From: Patiria pectinifera
Taxonomy: Eukaryota; Echinodermata; Asteroidea; Valvatida; Asterinidae
Direction of reading: 5' to 3'
Assembly: GCA_029964075.1 (NCBI GenBank)
Contig: CM057135.1
Coordinates: 27,331,366 to 27,395,365, forward strand
Length of the DNA stretch: 64,000 nucleotides
The position numbers and the translations under genes are program-made. Below are positions 1-48,359 of this stretch, one piece after another. Below the pieces are notes generated by a model. That model saw only the letters and a list, made by a program, of their open reading frames with translations, ran no database searches and was not told where the DNA came from. Numbering within the stretch: the stretch's first letter is position 1; each line of letters begins with the position of its first letter.

Positions 1-1263
1 GACCACGGGTTGCCCGGATAGAACTCACACGGCTGAAACGAGGAAAGTTAAACCAAAAAATCCGCCATCTGTCAGTTTTTTGAGCTGAAAAAAATGTGTC
101 ACTCATTTTTGTACTGTCAATTTAATAAATTCAAGTTTCACCAATCAAACAAAGTGAGTTGTAGCAATAGTATAGATTTTCTCTTTTTTATCGACTTTAT
201 TTACTCAATTTTGTGATCATTACCAATATATATAATGAAGACTATAAGGACTTTGCATCTGCTTGTACCCGATGCAAAATAAACAGAACAGCTGCAATAA
301 TAAGACGTGTAATATGCAATGAAAACACCATTACACACTTGAAGCAAAAATGAAGGGTATGTTTCATGAATAAATCCATACTTTCGGGGCACAATGAAGT
401 TGTTGAAAACAAAGCCTCGATTTATATTTTATGCATGAATTCGACACTCTTGTGGTACAGCAAAAGTGTCATCATGGCAAGCATAGTCCAGTTTGATAAT
501 TTTTGTACTGATCAGCTGAAATGTCAATTACTTTAAAAACTCTTATCAATTAAGGTCCCTACCAATTATTTCTTAATTTATTGTCGTGTTTGTTTTAAAG
601 TTCTTTGTGTATATATCAAAATTGTTGAAGTGCTTTCTTTAAAAATGCAAAATTAAAGGCAAACATTCCGTCTTCGTCACGTTTAAAATAAAAAAAAAAT
701 CAATTGTTAAAATCAACACCGTGTGGAAGGTAGATGCTACCACACAAAACATTAATGTTCAAGCTTTAGATGATCTCATTAATGTTCACGTACACCCTTT
801 TTTGTATTATGAACCCAGTGAGTATTTTGTGCTCGGTTTGTTCCTATTGGGGTCGTGATTGGGTTTTTTTCGTTAATACTTCATAATCGTTTCAGTTCTT
901 CTTAACAACAGGTGCATGAGCTTCCTCTATGCAAGATTTAGTATGTATATGCCACAATGTCGAGCGGAACCTCTCCAGAGAATGGCATGTCATGAATGGT
1001 GATGAAATGACTTGAGAAGGGAAGGCCTGCGCTGAATTGTAATGACACTTCGTCGGTAACATTCGGACAATGCCCTAAAATATACTCATATTTCCACAAT
1101 ACATGTGTAAAACAATGTTAACGAATGTTTACACATCGTTCAACGCATTGACGTGTGCAAGTAATTATGGTTGTGTTGGATCCATGTCTATCTTTTTTTT
1201 AATCCCCGTTGACCAATACACATTTTTGTTGTTTAAAGCCTTTTGAAACACCCTTTACCTAAT
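1..1263. other. Non-coding, nothing recognised
   Basis: AT-rich sequence with many short homopolymers. Reading frames are short and look random. No repeat family shared with the rest of the window was seen. Confidence 0.5.
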
Positions 1264-1267
1264 TTAA

Positions 1268-1789
1268 AGGTACATGTAGTTACAACACTCAGAAGTGGAT
1301 AGATTTGGGGTTATTATAGCAAATATTGTTACACTGACCTGGTTAAAGTTTTATGCTAATGGAAAACCAAGAAAAAAATGTTGTTCTTGTAGTCTGGTTC
1401 CCTGACCCTACTTCAGACGAAACAATGCAATTTATAGACGTCGGGGAATTGTCAGGTCAGGGAACCAGACTAGCTGGCCTGCACCTGTTCACAGATGTGT
1501 AACCGTTTGAAAACTAATGAAGACTAACTACATTTGGTAAATCAAGGGCAGTATTTGAAGGGGGAAAAATGTCTGCTTGATTTCCAGTGATGGACGGCTG
1601 ACCATCGTTGGAAATTGATACCAGAATTCCACTTTTCTTGCAAATCACAGCACAGCGGATGCTATGATTACACGTGATGTTTGTGACTATTTTTCACTAT
1701 ACAGTCAAGACAGGAAAGAATTTCATAATGATTTGGTATTTTTTTTTTCTAATGTTTGCAAATGTTGTATGCATGTAGGCCTACTACTC
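1268..1789 (+). mobile_element. TTAA-flanked MITE, copy 1
   Basis: About 522 bp with TTAA at both edges (1264-1267 and 790-793 of the second kilobase, i.e. 1790-1793). It shares its whole body with the copies at 36161, 46879 and 55637. An internal hairpin has arms AGTCTGGTTCCCTGACC and GGTCAGGGAACCAGACT (about 1392-1472). The right end reads GCAAATGTTGTATGC; the left terminus has decayed. TTAA targets and AGGG ends suggest a piggyBac-type non-autonomous element, by inference. Confidence 0.75.
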
Positions 1790-1793
1790 TTAA

Positions 1794-4422
1794 AGATAAC
1801 AAAAATAATGTTTTCTAGTAGCAGGGCCTTGCAATGTTTTGATAAATACCATGTCCCCGAGCTCAGCTGTACGTGCAAACTGAAAATTAAACGAGCTGAT
1901 CAAGCAACAGCCTTGGAAGACTGACACTTGATGCTCAATCGAGAAAATAACCTATTCACCATGTCCTTTCTTGGATAACATCACCTACTCACCGGAAGGG
2001 CCTGAGGTGGAAAAAAAACGTTCACGTAGTTGGTCACGTCCTTTAGAAACGGTTCTTTCTCGCAGCAAACGAGGTTATTTGACAGTTGCAAAATAATAAA
2101 ACTATGGCCACGTCTGAAATTCTTGTTTTGAGCTTTGTTTGGCTATTTACGGTATTAAACCCAATCATAGGTTGGGCCATAATGCAATAAAAACCAGGGA
2201 GAAAAGAAAAAACCGAACATAATACTTCACAGTTATAAATTAACATAATATGCTATTGGGCCTTTGCCATTATAACTATCGGAGCTACCTGACAATATAT
2301 GTATCAGTAGCTCTGAAAGCTCTATATTAATGTAAATTTATGTATGTAAAAGGTTAACGAGGGTATCCTTAACGCTTAACGGGGATTTCTCAACGGTTAA
2401 CGGTTTGAATACATGAATTCATTTGAATGGTGAATACAGCGAGGGCCTTTTTTAACGGTATGTATGACGGATGAATTCTTAACGGTTAACGGCTGAATGC
2501 TTCACACTTATTTGAACTAAGCGGTTAACGCACTCAGAGCTGCTATAGATAAGTGCATCCAGACTAGATTCCTTTTTTTTTAGTTATTGAATACGATGAA
2601 GGGGAAAGTTCTAGAACCAAACTTTATAATCTAATTTTCTTCGTTAGGCTGGTTTGAAGCGATTCCCACATGCGAACGCATACGCAGTGGCGGGTACATC
2701 AGCGAAATGCTGGTCTCCTACGCTTGACTAGTCCCTATTGTTGGGCTAAACAGCGCCCTCCTTAGTCCGCGTTCACACACACTGCAAAACAAACAAGCAG
2801 CCAATGCAGGGGCACGTATTGACAAATGTACAGGCCAAACGACTCCTACACATTCGAGAGAGTATTAAAATGGAAAATATAAAAGTGCCTATGATTCAAA
2901 GCGTACTGCTGAAGTTTAATTAAAAGATACGACGGTGTTCCTTTAATTCCATGGTTGAACAACCCAACTTGTCTGTTTATGTGTCAAATATTGTCCCAAT
3001 AGGCAACACTGAAGAAGATGCGCTGTGCATCTAGGATTTTTTTTTCATGAGATAGTGGCACAGGGTGCCTCGAGCCCTGCTCAAAACCCATCAAATTCTG
3101 CCTCACCACTCCCGGGAAAATATCACCTTTAAAACCCGCGAGACCCGCCACATTCCAACCCTATCCCCAATCGGTGACGATCAAGGTAAAGAAGTGGCAC
3201 AAGAAATACGTGTACACATGCATACGAAGTGTCAGTTACAGGGAGGGATCCCGTAACTGATATCAACATTATTCATTAACTTTTGCATATATGATGCATT
3301 ATCGCCTTGTTTTCAGACTTGTTTAATACCGTACGCGTTATTACTGGTGTATCCATTTCGTATAATGCCTTTGAGGAATCTCACCATTAGGCTGATTGCT
3401 TCATTCAATTTTTTTTTTCAAACTAAGTATTCTGGGGAGTGACAGTTAAATGGATTGAAGAAATTTACCGTACATATCGTAAATTGAAAATTGTCGGTTG
3501 AAGGCTGAGATACGTACTTATATAATAGGGGTATGGATCGCTCCCAATTGACGGTAACTTAAGGCAGAAACATGCCCGAGTTTAATAGTAACAACTACTT
3601 TACGATCATCATACCCACTCTTTTTAATACCAAAAAGTAATTCTTTCCAGCAAAAAAAAACAAAAAACTTGAGCCTACATTTTCGAGGTAGGTACTGCTG
3701 ACAGCAACTTTTCATTGCGATTGATATTGCTAATACACATTCAGGCAATGGCACGTTCGTGATATAATATGTTTTGGTATCGGAATGGAAGCTCTTACCG
3801 TACTTGTTGCCGTTAGGGACACCCGTGTATCAAACCATACAGCTATAGGAAGTCATGATCAAACCAAAGCGCAAGGATCGGATTAAAAAATGTTGCGCGT
3901 GACGATATCATCTTTGTCTGATCTCGATCATAATCGTCTAGACTACTGGGATGGCACCGACGCCAAAAACAAAACATCAACGATGTTGTTTGTTGCGTTC
4001 ACGACTTATGTGTTGATACCATCTGCAGTACGCAAATCATTCTGTATGAAACATTGTGTCAAAATTCTAGATCACTTACCCGAAAGAAAGGGACCGTTGC
4101 CGGCGATGGAAAGAGATGAATATTGCAACGTAGTCTCAAGGGAAAATATTCCTCCTGTACTCGTATCCTGTGTAAATTATCAAACACGTTTGAATAAATT
4201 TCGCATATAAAATATAACTATGCTGTTCCTTTTTTTAACATAAATATTTATGTTTCGCAAGTCAAGGTGCACATTATATCGACGGTGAAATCTGAATTGA
4301 AAGTGGTGAGTTCAAAATGTTCGCAAATACGTTAATCTTTCAATCTATGTTAAAGTCATACCTAATCAGGAAACAGTTTCTATGAGACATTTCAGTAACA
4401 GACATAATATGGTTCGGTGCAC
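1794..4422. other. Non-coding; AACGGTTAAC word cluster at 2350-2535
   Basis: Between 2350 and 2535 the words TTAACGG, AACGGTTAACGG and GGTTAACG recur about eight times with irregular spacing, several centred on the palindrome GTTAAC. The rest has no recognised gene or repeat. The 106-residue frame at 3890-4210 has no recognisable domain. Confidence 0.45.
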
Positions 4423-4424
4423 TA

Positions 4425-4960
4425 CAGGGTGATTTAAAAAAAAAAAAAATGTCGGGACTATTGTTTGATTGAAGTTCTGCATGAAGCACTTTTAAAATCT
4501 AGGACATGAAAGCCCAATTTGAAAGCTTTCTTTTAGTACAAGAATAATTCAATTCACTTATGTACTTTTCAAGTTACGGAATTTTAAACACAACCACCGT
4601 TTTAAAGTTCTGTCCACGGATCACAAAAAAAAGGTGCGCGTTCTTTCAGCAAAACGAAAACAATTCACACACATCCATATGTGATTTGTTTTCGTTTTGC
4701 TGAAAGAACACTAAACTTTTTTGTGATCCGTGGACAGAACCTTAAAACGGTGGTTGGTTTAAAATTCCGTTACTTAAAAAGTTACATGAATGATTTGAAC
4801 GATTCTTAAAAGTTACATGAATGATTTGAACGATTCTTGTACTAAAAGAAAGCTTATGAATGGGGCTTTCATATCCGAGATTTTGAAAGTGCTACATGCA
4901 AAGCTTCACGAAAACAATGGTCCCGACATTTGGGGTTTCGGGGTTTTTTTACTCAACCTG
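4425..4960. mobile_element. Full-length palindromic mariner-like MITE, copy 1
   Basis: A giant hairpin. The left arm (CAGGGTGATTTAAAA...) and the right arm (...TTTTTTTACTCAACCTG) are near-complementary over roughly 250 bases each, meeting around 4670. TA lies at both edges (4423-4424, 4961-4962). A 29-base segment of the right arm is tandemly duplicated (4778-4837). TA targets and CAGGGTGA-type ends fit a Tc1/mariner-type non-autonomous element. Related over its full length to the element at 32151. Confidence 0.75.
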
Positions 4961-14990: not shown

Positions 14991-17130
14991 AATATAAGCA
15001 CATGCAAAGTATTCACAATATTACTCAAATATGCCAGCAGCCCAGGCTTTATCTCAAGCCAGTGGTTTTTCTACGAAGTTAATCCGGTGTGAAATCGGAC
15101 TCGTATACAAATTCGGACTCGTTTTCCCTTTTATTGGTTAAACCTTCTCACGTGACTAGTCCCTCTCGCAATTATCTATGCATGAGCATGCGCAATACCA
15201 CCAATGAGTCCGTATTTCATAAAACCTAAATTCACGCTACACCGGTCCTCCAAAGAATGGGGCGCCTTAATGCTTGATTGATATTACCGTATAAATTCAT
15301 AAAGGTCGAAAAAGTAGTGGGCAGTATATACTATAGAGCCTGCACGTTCTCTCTGACCATTCTATAGGGGTACAATCACGTACGAGTTACCAGGATATGG
15401 CATGCAAGAGGATTGTTTGTTGTCATAAGCCATAGTCTCGCGTATTATGGGGCCTTGATTGTATGATTTCTTGTGAACTGAACCGCATCGCCATCAAAAT
15501 GAATTCCCGTCCCTAGACTTAGGAAGATTTCATTTCCCTTTCTCTTTGAGGCACTGCAGACGTGCTGGATTATGTTTTGATAAGGAAATCCACCATAAAA
15601 TAAATGTTTCGAGGTCATTGTGAAAGGAGACGGCTTTGATTGCTGGTCCTTCTTCCGATTTTTAAAGAAATAATAACCTTAAATCGAAGGTGCTTTCTAA
15701 TCAGGATAGAGGAATTCAATGGAATAAGAAAATGGAATACGAAAATGTACCTGTGTGTGATAACTATGTTCATATAGTAAGGGTTTTCTTATTGAAAGAT
15801 AACGGATAGAATGCATCTAAACTCCAAATAAAGCAAACAAAACAAATGTTAGAAACGTTTTTCCTCTGTTTATAATGTGTCAGCAGGTTCTTTCAAAAAT
15901 AATGAAAGGGGTGCCGATTATAAGGTTAATATGATGCAGGGGTCTGAGTTAGGGTAACTGAGTGGGTTTGGGTTAAAGTTTCACCGTATGGCTGAAGATT
16001 AAGAGATTATCATGAAGTGATACATTGTTTTTGTCAAGAATTGCCGTTCTGACGCCTATGAGTTTGTTTCTGCATTCAATAGGGGACGTTGAGGACAATA
16101 GGGTCCCCAATTCCCGAGAGGTCCCCAATTTGGATTCGTGTACAAAACATATGGGAGGTCTTCCTAAAAAGTTGGGTTACTACAAACAAAGTACAAACAA
16201 AAGAGGGAAAATAGGGGGTCCCCGATTTGCAAGCAAATACACACTTGTGTGAGGATGTTTCCTTGATGGCTAAAACTAACTAATCATTGTACACGTCTTT
16301 ACATATTTCTGTATCGCAGGTGTGGCGTCAAAGTTTACGACAGCGTATGGCACATTTGGCTCAAATGTTGGTAAGAAACACTGCCTATATAACGAGTATA
16401 AGAAACTGATGTGACAGAAACGAAAAAAGCAATTATTTCCAGGTTTCACAAAAATTTCAAGAACCTTTTGAAAAGCTAGCTGCAACCAATCTTTTTGACC
16501 TGATGAACTGCAAACACGGGAAAAGCAAAGACAATGTCCTCACGGCCAGGTGCTTAGCGTTTGTATTTCTTCGATCATATCAACATGCAACGCGCTAAGG
16601 TGTCTGTCCACCTGTGCCAACATGTGCATTTGGCTTTTTGATGTTGTCTTAAGTGGTATGTGGTTTTTACATCTCGAGAGCATACTGCAGAGAGAAAACG
16701 GCCAACGTTGAACAAATTGGATTTATTTGTTTGAAAACCTTGTAGCTGACATATCAACATTGAGCATGACATGACGGTGTTTTGGCATGCACACCGTCGG
16801 CCCCCAGTCATGTTTTTACAAGCACTGGCGGCAGTAGCGATGCATACAAGCCACGTTTCGGCGGCAATTCTAGTGCTGAAAGACGGCACTCAATTCCTGA
16901 AGTCGATAATAGAGGAATGTATTTGCTTTTGAGAGCTTTAAATCATTTACGTTGGAATAACGCATACTGACTGATAATTTGCCTTTCTTTGGCCGCTCGG
17001 GCCCGTAGGCAGGGGGTGGCGAGGTCGGACGTTCCCTCCCTCCCTACCCCCCCCCCATCCCAATCGGCCGCAGATCCACTTTTTCCTCGTGATTGACATT
17101 TGAGTTTTACTCAAATGTGTATTTCCATGT
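14991..17130. other. Non-coding, nothing recognised
   Basis: Frames of up to 104 codons (16575-16889, minus) lack any recognisable domain. The duplicated phrase GAGGTCCCCAATT and its variant occur near 16095-16130. No gene supported. Confidence 0.4.
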
Positions 17131-17600
17131 GTAATCAACTGATTATTAGACAAAAAGGTACACTTTTATTGTAAAAACGAACCTCCCATTCTATCAGGCT
17201 GCGTATGCGTAATCAACTATTTATTAGACATGAAAAGGTCCACTTTATATTAAAAACGACCCTCCAGTTCCGCCAGGCTGTGTATTTCGATATGTAATCA
17301 ACTGTTTATAAGACATGAAAAGGTCCACGTTATGGTAAAAACGACCCTCCCACCAAGCTGTGAATTTCAATGTGTATAATCAATTATTTATTAGACATGA
17401 AAATGTCAATTTTATGGTAAAAACGACACTCCACTTGACCAGGCTGTGTATTTATAGGTCTAATCAAATGTTAATTAGACATGAAAAGGTCCACTTTATT
17501 GTAAAAACGACACTCCACTTGTCCAGGCTGATCAACTGTTTATTAGACATGAAAAGGTCCGATTCATGGTAAAAACGACCCTTCGCTTCCACCAGGCTGG
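17131..17600 (+). repeat. Satellite: six ~70-85-bp units
   Basis: Units start near 17131, 17209, 17294, 17375, 17460 and 17531. Each carries TAATCAACTGTTTATTAGAC, ATGAAAAGGTCCACTTTAT, GTAAAAACGACCCTCC and CCAGGCTG with 10-20% divergence. The last two units are shorter. A short frame inside is an artefact of the repeat. Confidence 0.9.
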
Positions 17601-28339: not shown

Positions 28340-29925
28340 CTGGAGGGGAGAATGCAGGCAAAAACGCGAGAGAACTATGAACAATGTTTTAGGAGATACT
28401 GCTAATGATAATCCAGTCATACGATGGTTTACTTATAATTTTGTATGAGTATCTTAACTTGATCAGTGCTTCATCTCTTTTTCCTCAGAGCCAAGGTTGG
28501 AAATGAGTTGAAATGAATTAAGGAAGGCAAAAACTCAACAGAGGAAGAACCCAGGCAATCAAAAAAGGAACTGAAGGCAAGAGAAAACCCACTTTGTTAA
28601 GAGACGATGATTTTTGAGGAATCAGGAAAGTCCCTTATCCTAGCAAATATGCTTGGAAAGTGCATATTACCACACTGTTGCCAGAATATTGTGTATGATG
28701 GCCGGGCTGGAACTCAGATAATTTACTCCCATATAATGATACAGACGTCAAAAAATTCTGCACTCAAAACCACTCACCATCTTTTTCTCATTCAGGACCT
28801 GTTCCAGCATGGATCCTTGCTCCCCTTGTCTGTGCCTGTTTGCTGCCCCTCCAAGCCTGTCCCCTGATGGCTCATGCCCTGTGGTTTTCACCTCCATGCT
28901 AAAAGGATCCTGTACAAGGAAATGATTGATGTGGAGAAAAATTATAATACATGTTCAGCTTTGTGTGTGTGTGTTGGGGGAGGTACATGTACACACATGT
29001 ATTTAACTGTAGATAGTTAGTTTTGGAGGGTTTCTTGTGTAATGGAACAATTCTGGTATAAATTTTGTAACTTCTCAACCTGTTACGTAAGATTTTGGCG
29101 AACTTTTTAAGACCCAAGGGTGGGGATTTTACCCTCTTTTCAATGAAATTGCTTTTATTCTTCTGTACAGGTGCAGGGGGTGGGGTGGGGGTTGTTGGTT
29201 TGCTGACTCTGAAAGTGACATTTCGCACATCTAGAGTAAAGTTCTCTGGGAAAGAGAGGGTGACAATTGAGATATGAAATCTAGTAAAAAAAAACCTAAT
29301 ATGGCTACTAGCTCCGTGCTGTGTCCTTCAGCAATGTACTTTACCTCAGTTTCTGCCTCTCTTTACTACAAACAGTGGCAAGGCCACTCCTATCCAATAT
29401 CGATCAACCTGTATCTGTTAGACCCCAACTAAAGTAATTCTAGTGTTTCACTAAGTTGTGATCGTGCCAACTTCTGACGGGACATTCTTTAGTTGAGGAT
29501 TAACATAACTAACCATCCTAATCTGACACAACTTGACCTGACCTGACAGATCTGACCCGACCCCATCCAACCACCTCCCCCACCTGGTTTGCCATGGCTT
29601 TGCGTCGCTTGTACGTCTCCTTGTAGGTCTTATTCCGGTGGTACTTGCACTTCCAGGGCAGCAGCTGGTACCGGCGCGACTTGTAGGCCGACTTCTCGCA
29701 GCCCTTGACCGTGCAGGTCATCTCCACCTTGTCCTCCTTGGAACACGTAGATGATGTCGATGATGAGGATGAAAGCGATGACGATGATTCGGCCCGCTGA
29801 TGGGAGCTGGAATCATGTTTGATCAGCATGGGGGATGTAGCTTTTTCCGATGACGACTGGTTGTCTAACTCAGTCTGGCTGTCGGCAGCAGAACCATCTT
29901 GGCTTGAGCATTGTGAAGAAGACAT
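28190..29925 (-). CDS. RFXAP: RFXAP-like regulatory factor X-associated protein, three exons
   Basis: RFXAP is a nuclear subunit that joins RFX5 and RFXANK to bind the X box of target promoters; in vertebrates these are chiefly MHC class II genes. Coding exons 29584-29925, 28778-28909 and 28190-28339 join in phase 0 to give 207 residues; human RFXAP is about 272. Residues 1-66 are Ser-rich. Residues 71-110 carry C71-x4-C76-x16-C93-x2-H96 with W91, then a basic run (HRNKTYKETYKRRKA), as in the family core. Residues 148-175 (MLEQVLNEKK, then SPIVLEFLHKQQQ) match the C-terminal block that binds RFXANK/RFX5. Donors are CAG|GTGGGG and ATG|GTGAGT; acceptors are TTGTACAG and CCCCTCCAG. The ATG at 29925 lies two bases after a TTTTTGCAG acceptor, so a 5'UTR exon upstream is likely. 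The tail after residue 175 is a KHQQQ expansion unlike vertebrates. Family identity comes from recalled alignment; exon joins are untested. Confidence 0.88.
28242..28299 (-). repeat. 15-bp coding tandem repeat in RFXAP exon 3
   Basis: On the plus strand GCTGCTGGTGTTT-type units repeat about three to four times with small changes. On the coding strand this gives K/H followed by runs of Gln, so length changes of one unit keep the frame. It is a candidate length polymorphism in the C-terminal tail. Confidence 0.75.
28778..28909 (-). CDS. RFXAP: RFXAP exon 2
   Basis: A 132-base, 44-codon exon in phase 0 at both ends. The acceptor is TTTCCTTGTACAG and the donor ATG|GTGAGTGG. Its first 32 residues (DPFSMEV..., Gly/Arg-rich) are poorly conserved linker. 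Its last dozen (SMLEQVLNEKKM) match the start of the RFXAP C-terminal partner-binding region. It is too short to stand out as a reading frame and was found by looking for the missing part of that block between exons 1 and 3. Confidence 0.82.
29584..29925 (-). CDS. RFXAP: RFXAP exon 1 (coding part)
   Basis: Encodes residues 1-114. Transcript-wise, it opens just after a TTCCCTTTTTGCAG acceptor ending at 29928 and ends at AACCAG before the donor GTGGGG, whose GT lies at 29582-29583. It holds the Ser-rich N-terminus (poly-Ser around residues 47-60) and the Cys/His plus Lys/Arg/Tyr-rich block that is the most conserved part of RFXAP. Reading through the donor adds 21 low-quality residues and a stop, which supports splicing here. 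An in-frame coding exon further upstream cannot be ruled out. Confidence 0.87.
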
Positions 29926-29927
29926 AT

Positions 29928-30599
29928 CTGCAAAAAGGGAAAAAGTTATTGCCTCTCTGATTTATCTTCATTGTGGTCATCAAAAAAGTAGCCTCTTGTT
30001 ATGAATTTTGACAGGGATCCCTCTCAATTTTTGCCTTTGAAAAAGGTCCTGTCAATTGTCATTATCAATGACAATGTACCATTACCTTCTGAGTTGTTGA
30101 TACGTGCATTTCAGGTCAATCCAGTCTTAAAACAGCTTAAAAGTTTATCAAAATAAAAAAATGGGCCATTCTACAGAAATTGTAAACTAGATAAATTTTT
30201 TGGGGAAAAATCTTTTTAATGTGATGTAGGCCTACAAATGATTCTTATTCGTTAATGAACTGAAAGTACACACTATTCTGCTTGAAAATTACTTTGCTAA
30301 CTTGCGTTCATATCATAAAAAGGACGAATGCTTACAGTAAAGAAAATGACATTAATTGGCTTGGTTATACTTAAATAAGTACAATGTATAATATTATCTA
30401 TTCAATTTAAAATGTTAAGCCCCAAGATTAAGTGTCCGGATATTGGGCCAGTAATAAGGACCCGATTGTCATCTTTCAATGTGTGTACATTACCAAAAAA
30501 AACACGTTTACAACAAATAGACTGCTTACTTTCTTGGTAATCAAGGAAATGTCCTGATAATCAGGACAATGGCATAAGGCAAATCCGCATTACAAAGAT
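29928..30599. other. Probable 5' intron of RFXAP
   Basis: Begins at the acceptor next to the RFXAP start codon. No coding signal. Confidence 0.35.
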
Positions 30600-32150: not shown

Positions 32151-32680
32151 CAGGGTGAGTAAAAAAAAACGAAACCCAAATGTTGGGACCATTTTTGTAT
32201 TGAAGTTCTGCATGTAGCACTTTCAAAATCTAGGATATGAAAGCCCAATTCATAAGCTTTTGTTTAGTACGAGAATCATTCAAATCACTTATGTACTTTT
32301 CAAGTTACGGAGTTTTAAACACGGCCGCCCTTTTAAGGTTCTGTCCACGGATCACAAAACAGATCAGTGTTCTCTCAGCAACACGAAAACAAATTACATA
32401 AGGATACTTTTATGTGTGTGAATTGTTTTCGTTTTGGTGAAAGAACACACACACCTTTTGTGTGATCCGTGGACAGAACTTTAAAACGTTGTTTGCGTTT
32501 AAAACTCCGTAACTTGAAAAGGACATGAGTAATTTGAATGATTCTTGTACTAAAAGCAAGCCTATGAATTGGGCTTTCATATCCTAGATTTTGAAAGTGC
32601 TACAATGCAGATCTTCACTAAAACAATTATCCCAACATTTGGGTTTTGTTTCTTTGTACATTGTACATGTACTCATTCTG
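32151..32680. mobile_element. Full-length palindromic mariner-like MITE, copy 2
   Basis: TA at 32149-32150 and 32681-32682; the left end is CAGGGTGAGTAAAAAAAAAC. Arms pair through GTCCACGGATCACAAAA and TTTGTGTGATCCGTGGAC. A short ACATGTAC-like insertion (about 32655-32670) separates the last bases of the right terminus from the arm. Confidence 0.72.
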
Positions 32681-32682
32681 TA

Positions 32683-33427
32683 CATGTACATGGCTAGTGA
32701 TGAATGCAAGCAATGCCGATTTTATGTCAGAGACACAAGTTCACCAGAAATTTGCTAAAACAATGTACGCATTGTATACTGCAAGCAAAATTGTGCACTT
32801 TCCTACCATCATGATGTCAACTTTTTTAGCTTTAGCTTTTAATAAGGGAATAAATATGTAATTGGCCGGTAAAAAAAATGGCTAGGGGCCTGGACGCAGA
32901 TAATGGCCCCAGCCGAAGGCAAGGGAAGGGCCATTATCTGCCAGTTTTAAAGGTACAATGTACTTGTTTAATATGTTTAATACTGGCCAAGCACATATTT
33001 ATTCCCATTCATTCCTGGTCAAAAAGTCAAAACAACTCAAAAATTCACAATATTTCCAACGATCTTGCTCAACAATTTTCATGATTTTATCTCATGTTTT
33101 GTGAAACACCCCTGGCCATGTTTATGGTATGGGTCTTGCGCGAGTAATGCTGAAAATCTCCTTATATGGGGATTGGCGCGCGCACTGCGCATCCTGTGCG
33201 ATGTGGCGCAGAATGCAGCGGTGCAAGAATAAAGTGTTTAATACCAGCCGGTGTTTTATCATCAGTTTAAAAACACCCACGTGACGGGCTTTCGACCAAT
33301 AGGAATTGGTAAACTCTCTTAGGTATTTATGAATATGAAGTTAAAGTATACCTTTTAACATTCATAATGTAGTGAAGAAGGAACATTGATGTCACCCACA
33401 TGTAAAGTGCTTTTCAGCCATTCCATG
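32683..33427. other. Non-coding, nothing recognised
   Basis: A locally CpG-rich patch (33130-33240) contains GGCGCGCGCACTGCGCATCC. No gene or repeat family assigned. Confidence 0.4.
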
Positions 33428-34184
33428 GTGACTCGCGTGACATTTGAACAAAATGTAAAGTTTTAATGCATTACTGTTGTTAACCTGGCATTTATTCAAC
33501 TCAAATTAGCATGTATTTGAGTCAGGGCATTGTGAATCTATGGTTTAGTTTTTATATGATTACTTTAACATCGCTATTTTTTCATGTATCACAGTTTCTT
33601 TGACGTGACTCGCGTGACAGGATAGAAAAAGGGATTTTTTACATCCCTTGATTTAAATAGCTTTTCCTATGGATCTACCAGTGCTCTAAAAATTATTCTT
33701 ACTGAACTTAGAACTTAATACCCTCACCCAATACATGCATATGTTGTATTGTGCCAAATATCCCTCGTTGTAAGAAATAGCCTGAAGAAAATGTGACTCG
33801 CGTGACACAAATGCGTGACTCGCGTGACACAGTAGCTTTTCACTTTCACATTATAACTGTAATTTTAGTATAACAAATCAAATCATAATATTATATTAAT
33901 AAAAATGATTAACCTGTGAATACCTTATGAAAGAGTGTGAAAACTGCTATTTATCCCTTTACTTTGGCAAATGTTGGGGTGGAAATCTGGTTTAAACACA
34001 ATATCCTTAACAATGACATGGAGACAAAAAAATGTTTCGGAATTTAAGTTACGAAGTGATGTCATCAATCCACGGGTGATTATTTCAGGAAAACAGTTGT
34101 AATTCTTGGTCATGTAGAGTCACAGTTTCCTTAAAAGGTAAGAGCTGCAATTAATGATGCAGTTGTATAGGAATGTATACAGTA

Positions 34185-34375
34185 CAGTCGAATCTTGTTG
34201 GTACAAACTCTGTTAATACAAAATTCTGGTTATAACAAACATAAAGCCTTAGTCCCGACTGTGCATTAAATAATGTGCACAATGAATGGGACTGATGTTC
34301 CTCTTAATACAAAATTCTGATATAACAAACTATTTGGCTAGGTCCGAACGAGTTTGTATTAACGAGACTCGACTG
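34185..34375. mobile_element. pogo-like MITE with TA target
   Basis: TA at 34183-34184 and 34376-34377. The left terminus CAGTCGAATCTTGTTGGTAC and the reversed right terminus CAGTCGAGTCTCGTTAATAC continue to ACAAACTC on both sides. CAGTCGAGTC-type ends with TA duplication are typical of pogo/Tigger elements. Confidence 0.7.
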
Positions 34376-34526
34376 TATACACGTATATACATTTGTAAAA
34401 ACTGATTCAATTTCTTGTTACATAACTAATGCTTAAATTAAAGACTTAATTCCAATTCTATAATTTAATATGGCATTGTTTCTTTGTATTACATGTAAAT
34501 GAAACATTCCTGGCTTTGCTTGTGAC

Positions 34527-34898
34527 CAGGCGCGGATCCTGAGGGGGGTTTTTGGGGGGAAAACCCCCCCCCCCCCAGCTCTGTAAAAAAAAAATTCTCA
34601 TACAAAATTTCTAAAAAAAATAGTTGAAACACCCCTGCTGTGACACCCCCAAAAATTATACTGGTCTAATGTCCGCCTGTTCAAAATACGGTACACCATT
34701 CTGTAATGTGTTAAAAATCGTCAAATTTGAACAGCACCCCGATTGAAATTGGTACCAGCCCCCTTCCCCCTCCCCTCTCCCCCAGTTTTTTATTTTACGG
34801 AGGCCAAGTGTATCCGGAGAAAAAAACGTGTGTACATTTTCAGATTTTTTTGCTGATGAAACCCCCCTCCCCTGCAAAAATTCCTGGATCCGCCCCTG
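34527..34898. mobile_element. GC-rich foldback MITE (CAGGGGCGGATCC type)
   Basis: The left end CAGGCGCGGATCCTGAGGGG and the reversed right end CAGGGGCGGATCCAGGAATT are inverted repeats, with C/G homopolymers just inside. The left flank ends in GTGAC and the right flank starts with GTGAC. Termini resemble hAT-type MITEs, but no full 8-bp duplication is visible. Confidence 0.65.
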
Positions 34899-35103
34899 GT
34901 GACTCGCGTGACATACATCTTGTGTGACTCGCGTGACATTCTTGAGATAGTTTTTTCTACAAGGAATGTAGAGCAAATAAGAATATTCATACTTTTATTG
35001 ATAGACCACCACCATTTCATTTAGAAATATCAAACACTAGCTGAATCCCTCTCTAGTTATTAAGTAATCTGAAAAAAAGCCCTATTTTGTGACTCGCGTG
35101 ACA

Positions 35104-36156
35104 CATTTTTGAGGGTGTTTTCACGATGAAATAGTGGGAAAATACTGAAGACATTTGGAAAAATTCTCAATGTTTTATCAAATAGACTGGAATAGCTACC
35201 AAATGTATGCAGATAAAGCACAATCTTATGAATGAGCTTCAATTACTTCCTCAGTTTGTGATTTATACCCCTGACCCTCCGTTTTGCCCACAAAATTCAT
35301 CCATGTTCAGGAGGCTGAAACTTTTAATCAAATGATTTATTTTTAAAAATCTTTTGAGATTTAGATGGTTTCAATATTCCTCTTATCAAATATAACTGAC
35401 AAACATTTATTCCTTTCACTTCAATTTTTGAGTTTGGTGATGACCCTTACATGGAATGGCTGTTTTTCCTAATTCATTGGATTATACTGGTGCCATGGAA
35501 ACACAGCATTCATCACCTTGCCAAATTAGCTCAGTGTTCGTGCACGTGTACGCGTACATACGTTGTTGATTTACACAATTGATTAATGGATGGACAGTGG
35601 CTTTCTAGGACCTGAGCGCTTGCCTGTGGTTTCTTAGACATCATCAGATGTCATGTTGACGATACAAAAAAAGTATAGGGTTGCAAGGCTTCGTTGCTTT
35701 TGTGAAAGTTACAATCTAGACAACCCTTGGGGCTAAGGAATAACGGAATAATGCATTGTTGAACCCCTCAAATTGCTGAACTGCGTAGTTGAATTTCTCA
35801 AACAAAATAAATAGAATCAAATGAAGAAAAAAATTGTGGTATAAGTTTAAGAATTTACACATTTATCTTATTACTGTTACATTATGGAAATCAAAGCCAG
35901 ATCCAAAAATACTCAGAGGAGATGTACACCAGCAGATTTCGCGTTTATTTAACCTGAAATGATAAATTTCAGAGATTGTTTCTAATAATTCACGGAATTT
36001 ATAAGTGATTTACAAAAGTCATTTCATAATGTTTACACTAGTCACTAGTATTATGTATGTACATGTAGGTACCTGTTCATTTGAAATGAAATCCACTCAT
36101 AAATGATTTCGATATGTTCAGTGATGCTTCAGTCACCACTGTCTGCTATCAGATCA
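35104..36156. other. Non-coding; RFX-like X-box at 35489
   Basis: GGTGCCATGGAAAC at 35489-35502 agrees with the RFX X-box consensus GTHNYYATRRNAAC at 13 of 14 positions, and ATTGG (a CCAAT box) lies nine bases before it. No gene recognised. Confidence 0.35.
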
Positions 36157-48231: not shown

Positions 48232-48359
48232 CTCTATGTTCCGACACCCCTATGTTCCGACTGCACATATTCCTATTCCTAACCCTAACCCTAACCCTAA
48301 CCCTAACCGGGAGTAACACAATCTAGGTTGTCGGAACATAGGGGTGTCGGAACATAGAG
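48232..48359. mobile_element. Small inverted-repeat element enclosing telomere-like repeats
   Basis: CTCTATGTTCCGACACCCCT and the following ten bases (48232-48261) are exactly complementary to 48330-48359. Each arm holds TATGTTCCGAC twice. Between them sit four CCCTAA units (48277-48307). The total is 128 bp. No clear target duplication. It lies just after a tRNA-like head. Confidence 0.8.

Follow-up and report, generated by a model that had tools for sequence, protein, structure and literature searches.

Tn7 and phage Mu carry several long transposase sites, in unequal numbers at their two ends, which serve end pairing, and subterminal repeats are also found in En/Spm. Insertion leaves target-site duplications (TSDs) of 8 bp in the hAT elements and of 3-4 bp in Academ. 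According to the available text of PMC11707139, some transposon systems require arrays of transposase sites at their ends, and the longer ends of eukaryotic elements are as a rule put down to binding sites repeated in the subterminal region, which are held to raise the efficiency of the synapse; as far as this text describes it, the subterminal transposase-site array is a known kind of anatomy.

Our study reports on a 64-kb stretch of Patiria pectinifera DNA (the window), in which a 15-bp word, GTGACTCGCGTGACA, is clustered in seven exact copies. We find that the words lie within one copy of a DNA transposon, and their sequence context makes it highly probable that they form a subterminal array of predicted transposase-binding sites in that copy. 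The array resembles those of Tn7 and phage Mu in its multiple long sites and their unequal numbers per end; it differs in that the left sites extend to 415 bp from their end and the right ones begin 374 bp from theirs, and in that the host is a eukaryote. With hAT elements (Tol2, Hermes), Ac/Ds, En/Spm and piggyBac it shares, so far as the available descriptions of these go, a repeated subterminal motif, whereas the motif here is 15 bp long and present in seven copies of one orientation, the TSD is 4 bp and not TTAA, and the encoded protein has no Pfam match. A hAT assignment was rejected on the flanks, which match over 8 bp in 0 of 28 copies, and piggyBac and Kolobok on the absence of TTAA from all 19 perfect TSDs.

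KolobokP, a DNA transposon of animals, has direct repeats close to each of its ends together with short terminal inverted repeats (TIRs), as does the element described here; in the portion of PMC9587614 available, however, it belongs to the TTAA-duplicating Kolobok group, and its terminal direct repeats are long (about 450 or 660 bp) rather than 15-bp words. Academ, compared by its TSD alone, duplicates 3 bp in the available text of PMC5199201, against 4 bp here. The Sola2 elements, as presented in the accessible part of PMC3627910, have AT-rich 4-bp TSDs (AWWT, ATAT, AAAT, ATTT) and TIRs of 12, 13 or 21 bp. Compared by its ends and not by its transposase, our element is similar to these, with 4-bp TSDs of 84% A+T and 13-bp TIRs; one Sola transposase in the same text has 888 amino acids, against 740 codons here. 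The TSDs and TIR length thus fit Sola2, to which we claim no membership, and no description of subterminal word arrays in Sola2 was found in the available text of the literature searched.

The words and the element that carries them

The seven words share the forward orientation and are spaced by 177, 188, 22, about 1,050, 25 and 165 bp (Table 1). An exact search, and a search allowing two mismatches, found no other copy in the 64 kb, where 100 dinucleotide shuffles gave an expected 0.06 matches at up to two mismatches and at most one; the nine-base half-words GTGACTCGC and TCGCGTGAC are likewise absent from the rest of the window on both strands. The number, common orientation and uniqueness of the words given in the original prediction are thus borne out. 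It had further held that the sequence between the words is not shared, and had proposed aligning the surroundings of the copies. This alignment left no residual homology between spacers: the best scores, up to 24, lie within the span of 18 to 166 covered by the highest scores of 30 sets of random controls, in a comparison that excludes the physically overlapping pairs (copies 3/4 and 5/6) and sets aside two scores of 30-31 that equal the score of 15 masked N's matched to each other.

The genome-wide count, also proposed earlier, gives 741 occurrences of GTGACTCGCGTGACA in the 613.5-Mb assembly (376 + 365) and none of the reversed control. Among the 100 matches listed the words fall into clusters, many of which repeat the spacings of the window. 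The recurrence of the same spacings at many loci implies that the words belong to something copied as a whole, and displaces an independent binding-site cluster or enhancer as the primary account. A larger repeated unit around the words has more than 100 genomic copies, and at up to one mismatch its left end is found 126 times and its right end 124 times; among the matches listed, 15 right-end loci lack a left end, counted by eye against a list of exact left matches. When preceded by A, a context absent from the element consensus, GTGACTCGCGTGACA is found at seven genomic places. At least six of them belong to or adjoin copies already known or ends among the matches listed; the seventh is C21:16426970. 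The earlier suggestion that the sites had spread by some unrecognised mechanism therefore gives way to the copying of a whole 2-kb unit, with its TIRs and 4-bp TSDs, rather than of single words. A repeat acting at the RNA level, to which the single orientation might have pointed, was set aside once the ends of the element had been located.

Table 1. Coordinates of the element and its parts in the window.
Feature	Position	Strand	Remarks
Non-autonomous DNA transposon copy, 2,048 bp	33415..35462	+	Ends sharply bounded when aligned with 29 fetched loci (27 full-length)
Left TSD, TTTT	33411..33414	.	Identical to 35463-35466
Left TIR, CAGCCATTCCATG, 13 bp	33415..33427	+	Perfect complement of 35450-35462
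Word 1	33428..33442	+	Directly inside the left TIR; intact in 28/28 copies
Word 2	33605..33619	+	Intact in 25/28 copies
Word 3	33793..33807	+	Intact in 27/28 copies
Word 4	33815..33829	+	Intact in 24/28 copies
Remnant of the 3' end of the putative transposase frame, PRITTVFLK-stop	34080..34111	-	Ends like the protein of C11:3309399-3313611
Nested insert, TA on both sides	34183..34377	.	Inverted ends; C11 copy lacks it at the same place
GTGAC, left copy of the 5-bp duplication by the nested insert	34522..34526	+	Right copy 34899-34903
Nested insert, ends CAGGCGCGGATCC / GGATCCGCCCCTG	34527..34898	.	Absent from the C11 copy, where word 5 is uninterrupted
Word 5	34899..34913	+	Intact in 24/28 copies
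Word 6	34924..34938	+	Intact in 25/28 copies
Word 7	35089..35103	+	First base 374 bp from the right end; intact in 26/28 copies
Right TIR, 13 bp, + strand CATGGAATGGCTG	35450..35462	-	From the alignment of copies
Right TSD, TTTT	35463..35466	.	From the alignment of copies

Thirty sequences, the window and 29 further loci, were examined. Two were dropped before the counts, L022 for want of a right end and L024 for its altered ends and the other 2-kb element inside it, and the 28 full-length copies counted are those of the window, L009-L021, L023, L025 and L056-L067. The 4-bp TSD is perfect in 19 of these, has one mismatch in six and two mismatches in three; identical 5-mers flank none of the 28. 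Random re-pairing of the flanks yields on average 1.0 perfect 4-mer, with a maximum of six in 2,000 trials, and the A+T content is 84% in the 19 perfect TSDs and 63% in the flanks. When the two flanks of a copy are joined, the product for five of the 28 matches other fetched DNA continuously through the junction, in repeats (L062 with L042 at 97% over 386 bp), which identifies the matching loci as empty sites. Identity to the consensus, in which all seven words are present, is 97.5-99.2% among the copies, and 288 of the 350 variants outside the GC-rich insert are private to one copy; this identity and the predominance of private variants point to a recent spread of the family.

Nine TSDs are imperfect, and over all 28 copies 12 of 112 TSD positions are mismatched, more than would be expected when copies diverge from their consensus by 1-2.5%; copies may have recombined with one another, or some events may have been imprecise. 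In one copy, L019, a tandem of three words 22 bp apart (element positions 379, 401 and 423, within 379-437) stands in place of two, and its extra word is a site gained through duplication of the unit.

Two inserts are nested in the window copy. The shorter, at 34183, we take to be pogo-like. The longer must have landed in word 5, as the uninterrupted word of the copy on C11 indicates, leaving GTGAC on both sides; the right GTGAC constitutes the first third of word 5, and it is by virtue of this duplication that the word is still intact. A search of the fetched DNA for other copies of the longer insert recovered only the same insert.

The words are better kept than the rest of the element, though unevenly, and the support for this is moderate. 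With the GC-rich nested insert set aside, differences are seen at 13 of 835 CpG positions in words and at 38 of 874 elsewhere (Fisher p 0.0009), and at 5 of 2,062 non-CpG positions in words against 430 of 42,538 (p 0.00008), counts in which the cells of related copies are not independent. Split by origin, and with the window copy left out, the 15 copies that follow the order of the listing yield p 0.014 (CpG) and 0.012 (other), and 12 chosen by similarity give p 0.06 and 0.011; the word itself led to the copies of the first set, and resemblance to the four-word stretch to those of the second, an ascertainment that slightly favours intact words. At the CpG positions of the left 460 bp the words are no better kept (3/270 against 2/90, and 5/216 against 1/72), nor are they at the non-CpG positions of the right end (4/484 against 66/7,723, and 1/396 against 40/6,176).

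Several other features of the window were recorded. On the minus strand at 29518-29961, an open frame matches PF15289, the RFXANK-binding domain of an RFX-associated protein, at E 3.4e-9; this is an exon of a host gene, some 3.5 kb away from the transposon copy. Common 20-mers and long imperfect inverted repeats mark 4554-4760 and 32159-32660, which are probably two copies of another, fold-back element. A tandem array with a unit of 84 bp (or 166 bp) in 4.9 (2.4) copies occupies 17116-17517, and 5.2 perfect copies of the telomere-like hexamer CCTAAC lie in the interior at 48278-48308.

The long form and its protein

A longer copy, of 4,213 bp, lies at C11:3309399-3313611. It has the same TIRs, a perfect CTTT TSD and an intact frame of 740 codons on the minus strand, lacks both nested inserts of the window copy, and carries the words at its positions 14, 191, 379, 401, 3650, 3675 and 3840, the word at 191 with a single C to T substitution at a CpG. 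The 2-kb form lacks positions 698-3443 of this copy and retains the final codons of its frame; it arose by a deletion of 2.75 kb, which falls after 34111 in the window. Terminal inverted repeats, a TSD of fixed length and a longer coding copy with the same ends, by which DNA transposons are recognised, are all present, and the element of the window is an internal-deletion, non-autonomous form of a 4.2-kb DNA transposon. Among the matches listed, six end pairs more than 2.6 kb apart were seen by eye and the interiors of three were read: one contains the 740-codon frame (C11:3309850-3312950), and the other two (C21:769250-771650 and C11:6153100-6155400) have no open frame longer than 128 codons.

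A genome search with the 740-codon protein returns one identical place, which is the source itself, and more distant relatives, with 63 matches at E <= 0.001 (62 of the 94 candidates scored); the relatives at C19:23232593, C6:7007525 and C20:27702387 are among those whose frames are intact. The N-terminal part of the protein is basic, and its first 150 residues include 44 K+R and 9 D+E. Searches with the protein against Pfam, NCBIfam and the PDB sequences gave no match up to E = 1, and one weak match was obtained in PHROGs (E 0.045). The two other members of the protein alignment A1 gave five Pfam rows, the best at E 0.03, which we take as chance, and a PDB profile search gave three rows at E 2-2.8. 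No relatives were confirmed in the viral and prokaryote collections. Three aspartates, D380, D457 and D498, are invariant in three relatives, where the motifs DFAEN, (S/T)DG.A.Q.K and SHGKG..DG.GG occur; these motifs were not found in the literature searched. We infer that the three aspartates represent a DDD triad, and together with the place of the frame in the element they suggest that it encodes the transposase.

The TIR was found in the literature searched only in works on unrelated subjects. The word GTGACTCGCGTGACA is absent from that literature, and its reverse complement appears there only in an unrelated liver-cancer study; the family may be catalogued in Repbase or Dfam.

Word positions in a second family

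Nested within the first-family copy L024 is another element (L024:3279-5263) of 1,985 bp, with the TIR GGGCAATTCCAC, TTTT on both sides and a repeated word of its own, GGTAACGGAAGGACG. This second family was met by chance through its nesting, and geometry played no part in its choice. Genome-wide, GGTAACGGAAGGACG occurs 1,086 times (554 + 532); the 100 matches listed include 11 clusters in which three left words could be read by eye, at spacings of 177-183 and 199. A long member of 4,730 bp (L073:489-5218), flanked by TAAT on both sides, encodes without stops the nearest relative of the first-family protein (35% identical). The tips of the two families are related, as a comparison of CAGCCATTCCATGG and GGGCAATTCCACGG indicates.

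The words of the long second-family member lie 13, 192, 391 and 405 from its left end and 561 (in reverse), 541 and 375 bp from its right end, while those of the first family lie 14, 191, 379 and 401 from the left and 564, 539 and 374 from the right. The two frames thus differ by 1, 1, 12 and 4 bp on the left and by 3, 2 and 1 bp on the right. The second family has in addition an eighth word, reversed and with one mismatch, 575 bp from the right end. The words near that end include a back-to-back pair. When word 1 was fixed, the other three left words and the three right words were drawn at random and the eighth copy at 575 was left out, only 10 draws in 10 million placed every word no more than 12 bp from its position in the second family. 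The left spacers of the first family and of the 1,985-bp element are not detectably alike (score 7.0, against 5.4 +/- 6.3 in shuffles), and the right spacers are slightly alike (39, against 15.5 +/- 7.4). Judged from these sequences, the two families suggest that the frame of positions may be constrained, while its letters would follow the transposase of each family.

More distant relatives were also read. The locus L074:458-4461, with AAAA on both sides, encodes a relative of 711 codons that is 29% identical in alignment A1; it has inverted repeats of 618 bp that are 97.6% alike and the tip GGGTCATTCC (GGGTCATTCCGTGT in the tip comparison), and no seven-word array was found in it. This locus represents the same protein group with a different end architecture. 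Beside the matches in the still more distant L075 and L076 lies a 15-bp minisatellite of CTCGGTTGTCCTTTG-like units, and no recognisable element end was seen in the flanks read.

Proposed function of the words

Our analysis suggests a model for the activity of the array. The encoded protein, the putative transposase, would bind the 15-bp word, and the four sites in the left 415 bp, together with the three that start 374-564 bp from the right end, would aid the pairing of the ends; the enzyme would then cleave at the TIRs and insert the element with a 4-bp stagger, and the short 2-kb copies would be mobilised in trans. From one family to another, we propose that the scaffold stays fixed while the DNA-binding part of the protein changes in step with the words, which would account for words that differ between families while their coordinates are kept. 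The original prediction had offered as one possibility a cluster bound by some factor; binding survives in this model, in that the words are probably sites of the element's own transposase, but the isolated cluster does not, as the words are part of a transposon. It had also considered that the word might be the terminus of a known abundant transposon. The word does lie within an abundant transposon (741 copies, in clusters of the same spacing), but is not itself the terminus. Some observations count against the model: the words are unevenly kept, no word lies near the right TIR, one right word of the second family is reversed and an eighth, reversed word is present there, L074 has no such array, and nine of the 28 copies have imperfect TSDs.

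The main alternative keeps the words as transposase sites, but has them restrain activity or regulate the element, as subterminal inhibitory or promoter-repressing sequences, instead of pairing its ends. Four words lie downstream and three upstream of the transposase frame, and their occupancy could affect transcription; in the available text of PMC11707139, moreover, subterminal sequences are reported to restrict the activity of piggyBat. However, word 1 directly adjoins the left TIR, and the second family preserves the frame of positions at its left and right ends alike, for which end pairing offers the simplest, though not a decisive, explanation, and we consider regulation unlikely to be the role of the words. 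It is rather less probable again that they are sites for a host DNA-binding protein, such as a transcription factor or a silencing zinc finger, carried about in the transposon. The word is unlike any known transposase site among those checked, and its somewhat better preservation would also be expected from a host role, but a host factor is not expected to switch with the family, and the two families have unrelated words at the same positions. The genomic distribution also speaks against it, with 741 words in the genome and, for the word preceded by A, at least six of the seven places in known copies.

A decayed tandem satellite, in which each unit has kept only a protein-binding box, would be in keeping with the similar size of three of the spacings (177, 188 and 165). 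We give it next to no credence: the spacers are not homologous, the pairs at 22 and 25 bp fit no period, no tandem array was called over the cluster, and the unit occurs as scattered single copies bounded by TIRs and TSDs, a genomic distribution that excludes a satellite. The judgement of the original prediction that a plain satellite does not explain the words was therefore sound.

While the transposon core of an end-pairing array is ordinary, the seven-site frame with exchanged words is less so. We put forward tentatively, with confidence a little short of even, that a clade of animal transposons keeps a seven-position docking frame in which the word is swapped wholesale, in all copies together, from family to family. 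With the same reserve, we place this putative frame at about +14, +191, +379/391 and +401/405 from one end and about 563, 540 and 375 bp from the other.

For the annotation of this genome, GTGACTCGCGTGACA provides a sensitive marker of the first-family repeat, and the locus shows that caution is needed before a cluster of this kind in an animal genome is taken for an enhancer. A structure would inform on the 740-codon protein family, for which searches of Pfam, NCBIfam and the PDB sequences gave nothing up to E = 1. If the proposed frame is correct, two families in one genome would read different words on the same scaffold, and would represent natural orthogonal pairs of transposase and site, as well as a clean system in which to follow how an enzyme and its many scattered sites shift specificity together. 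The position of a binding site may thus outlast its sequence, which bears on how new recognition words are gained when many sites change at once.
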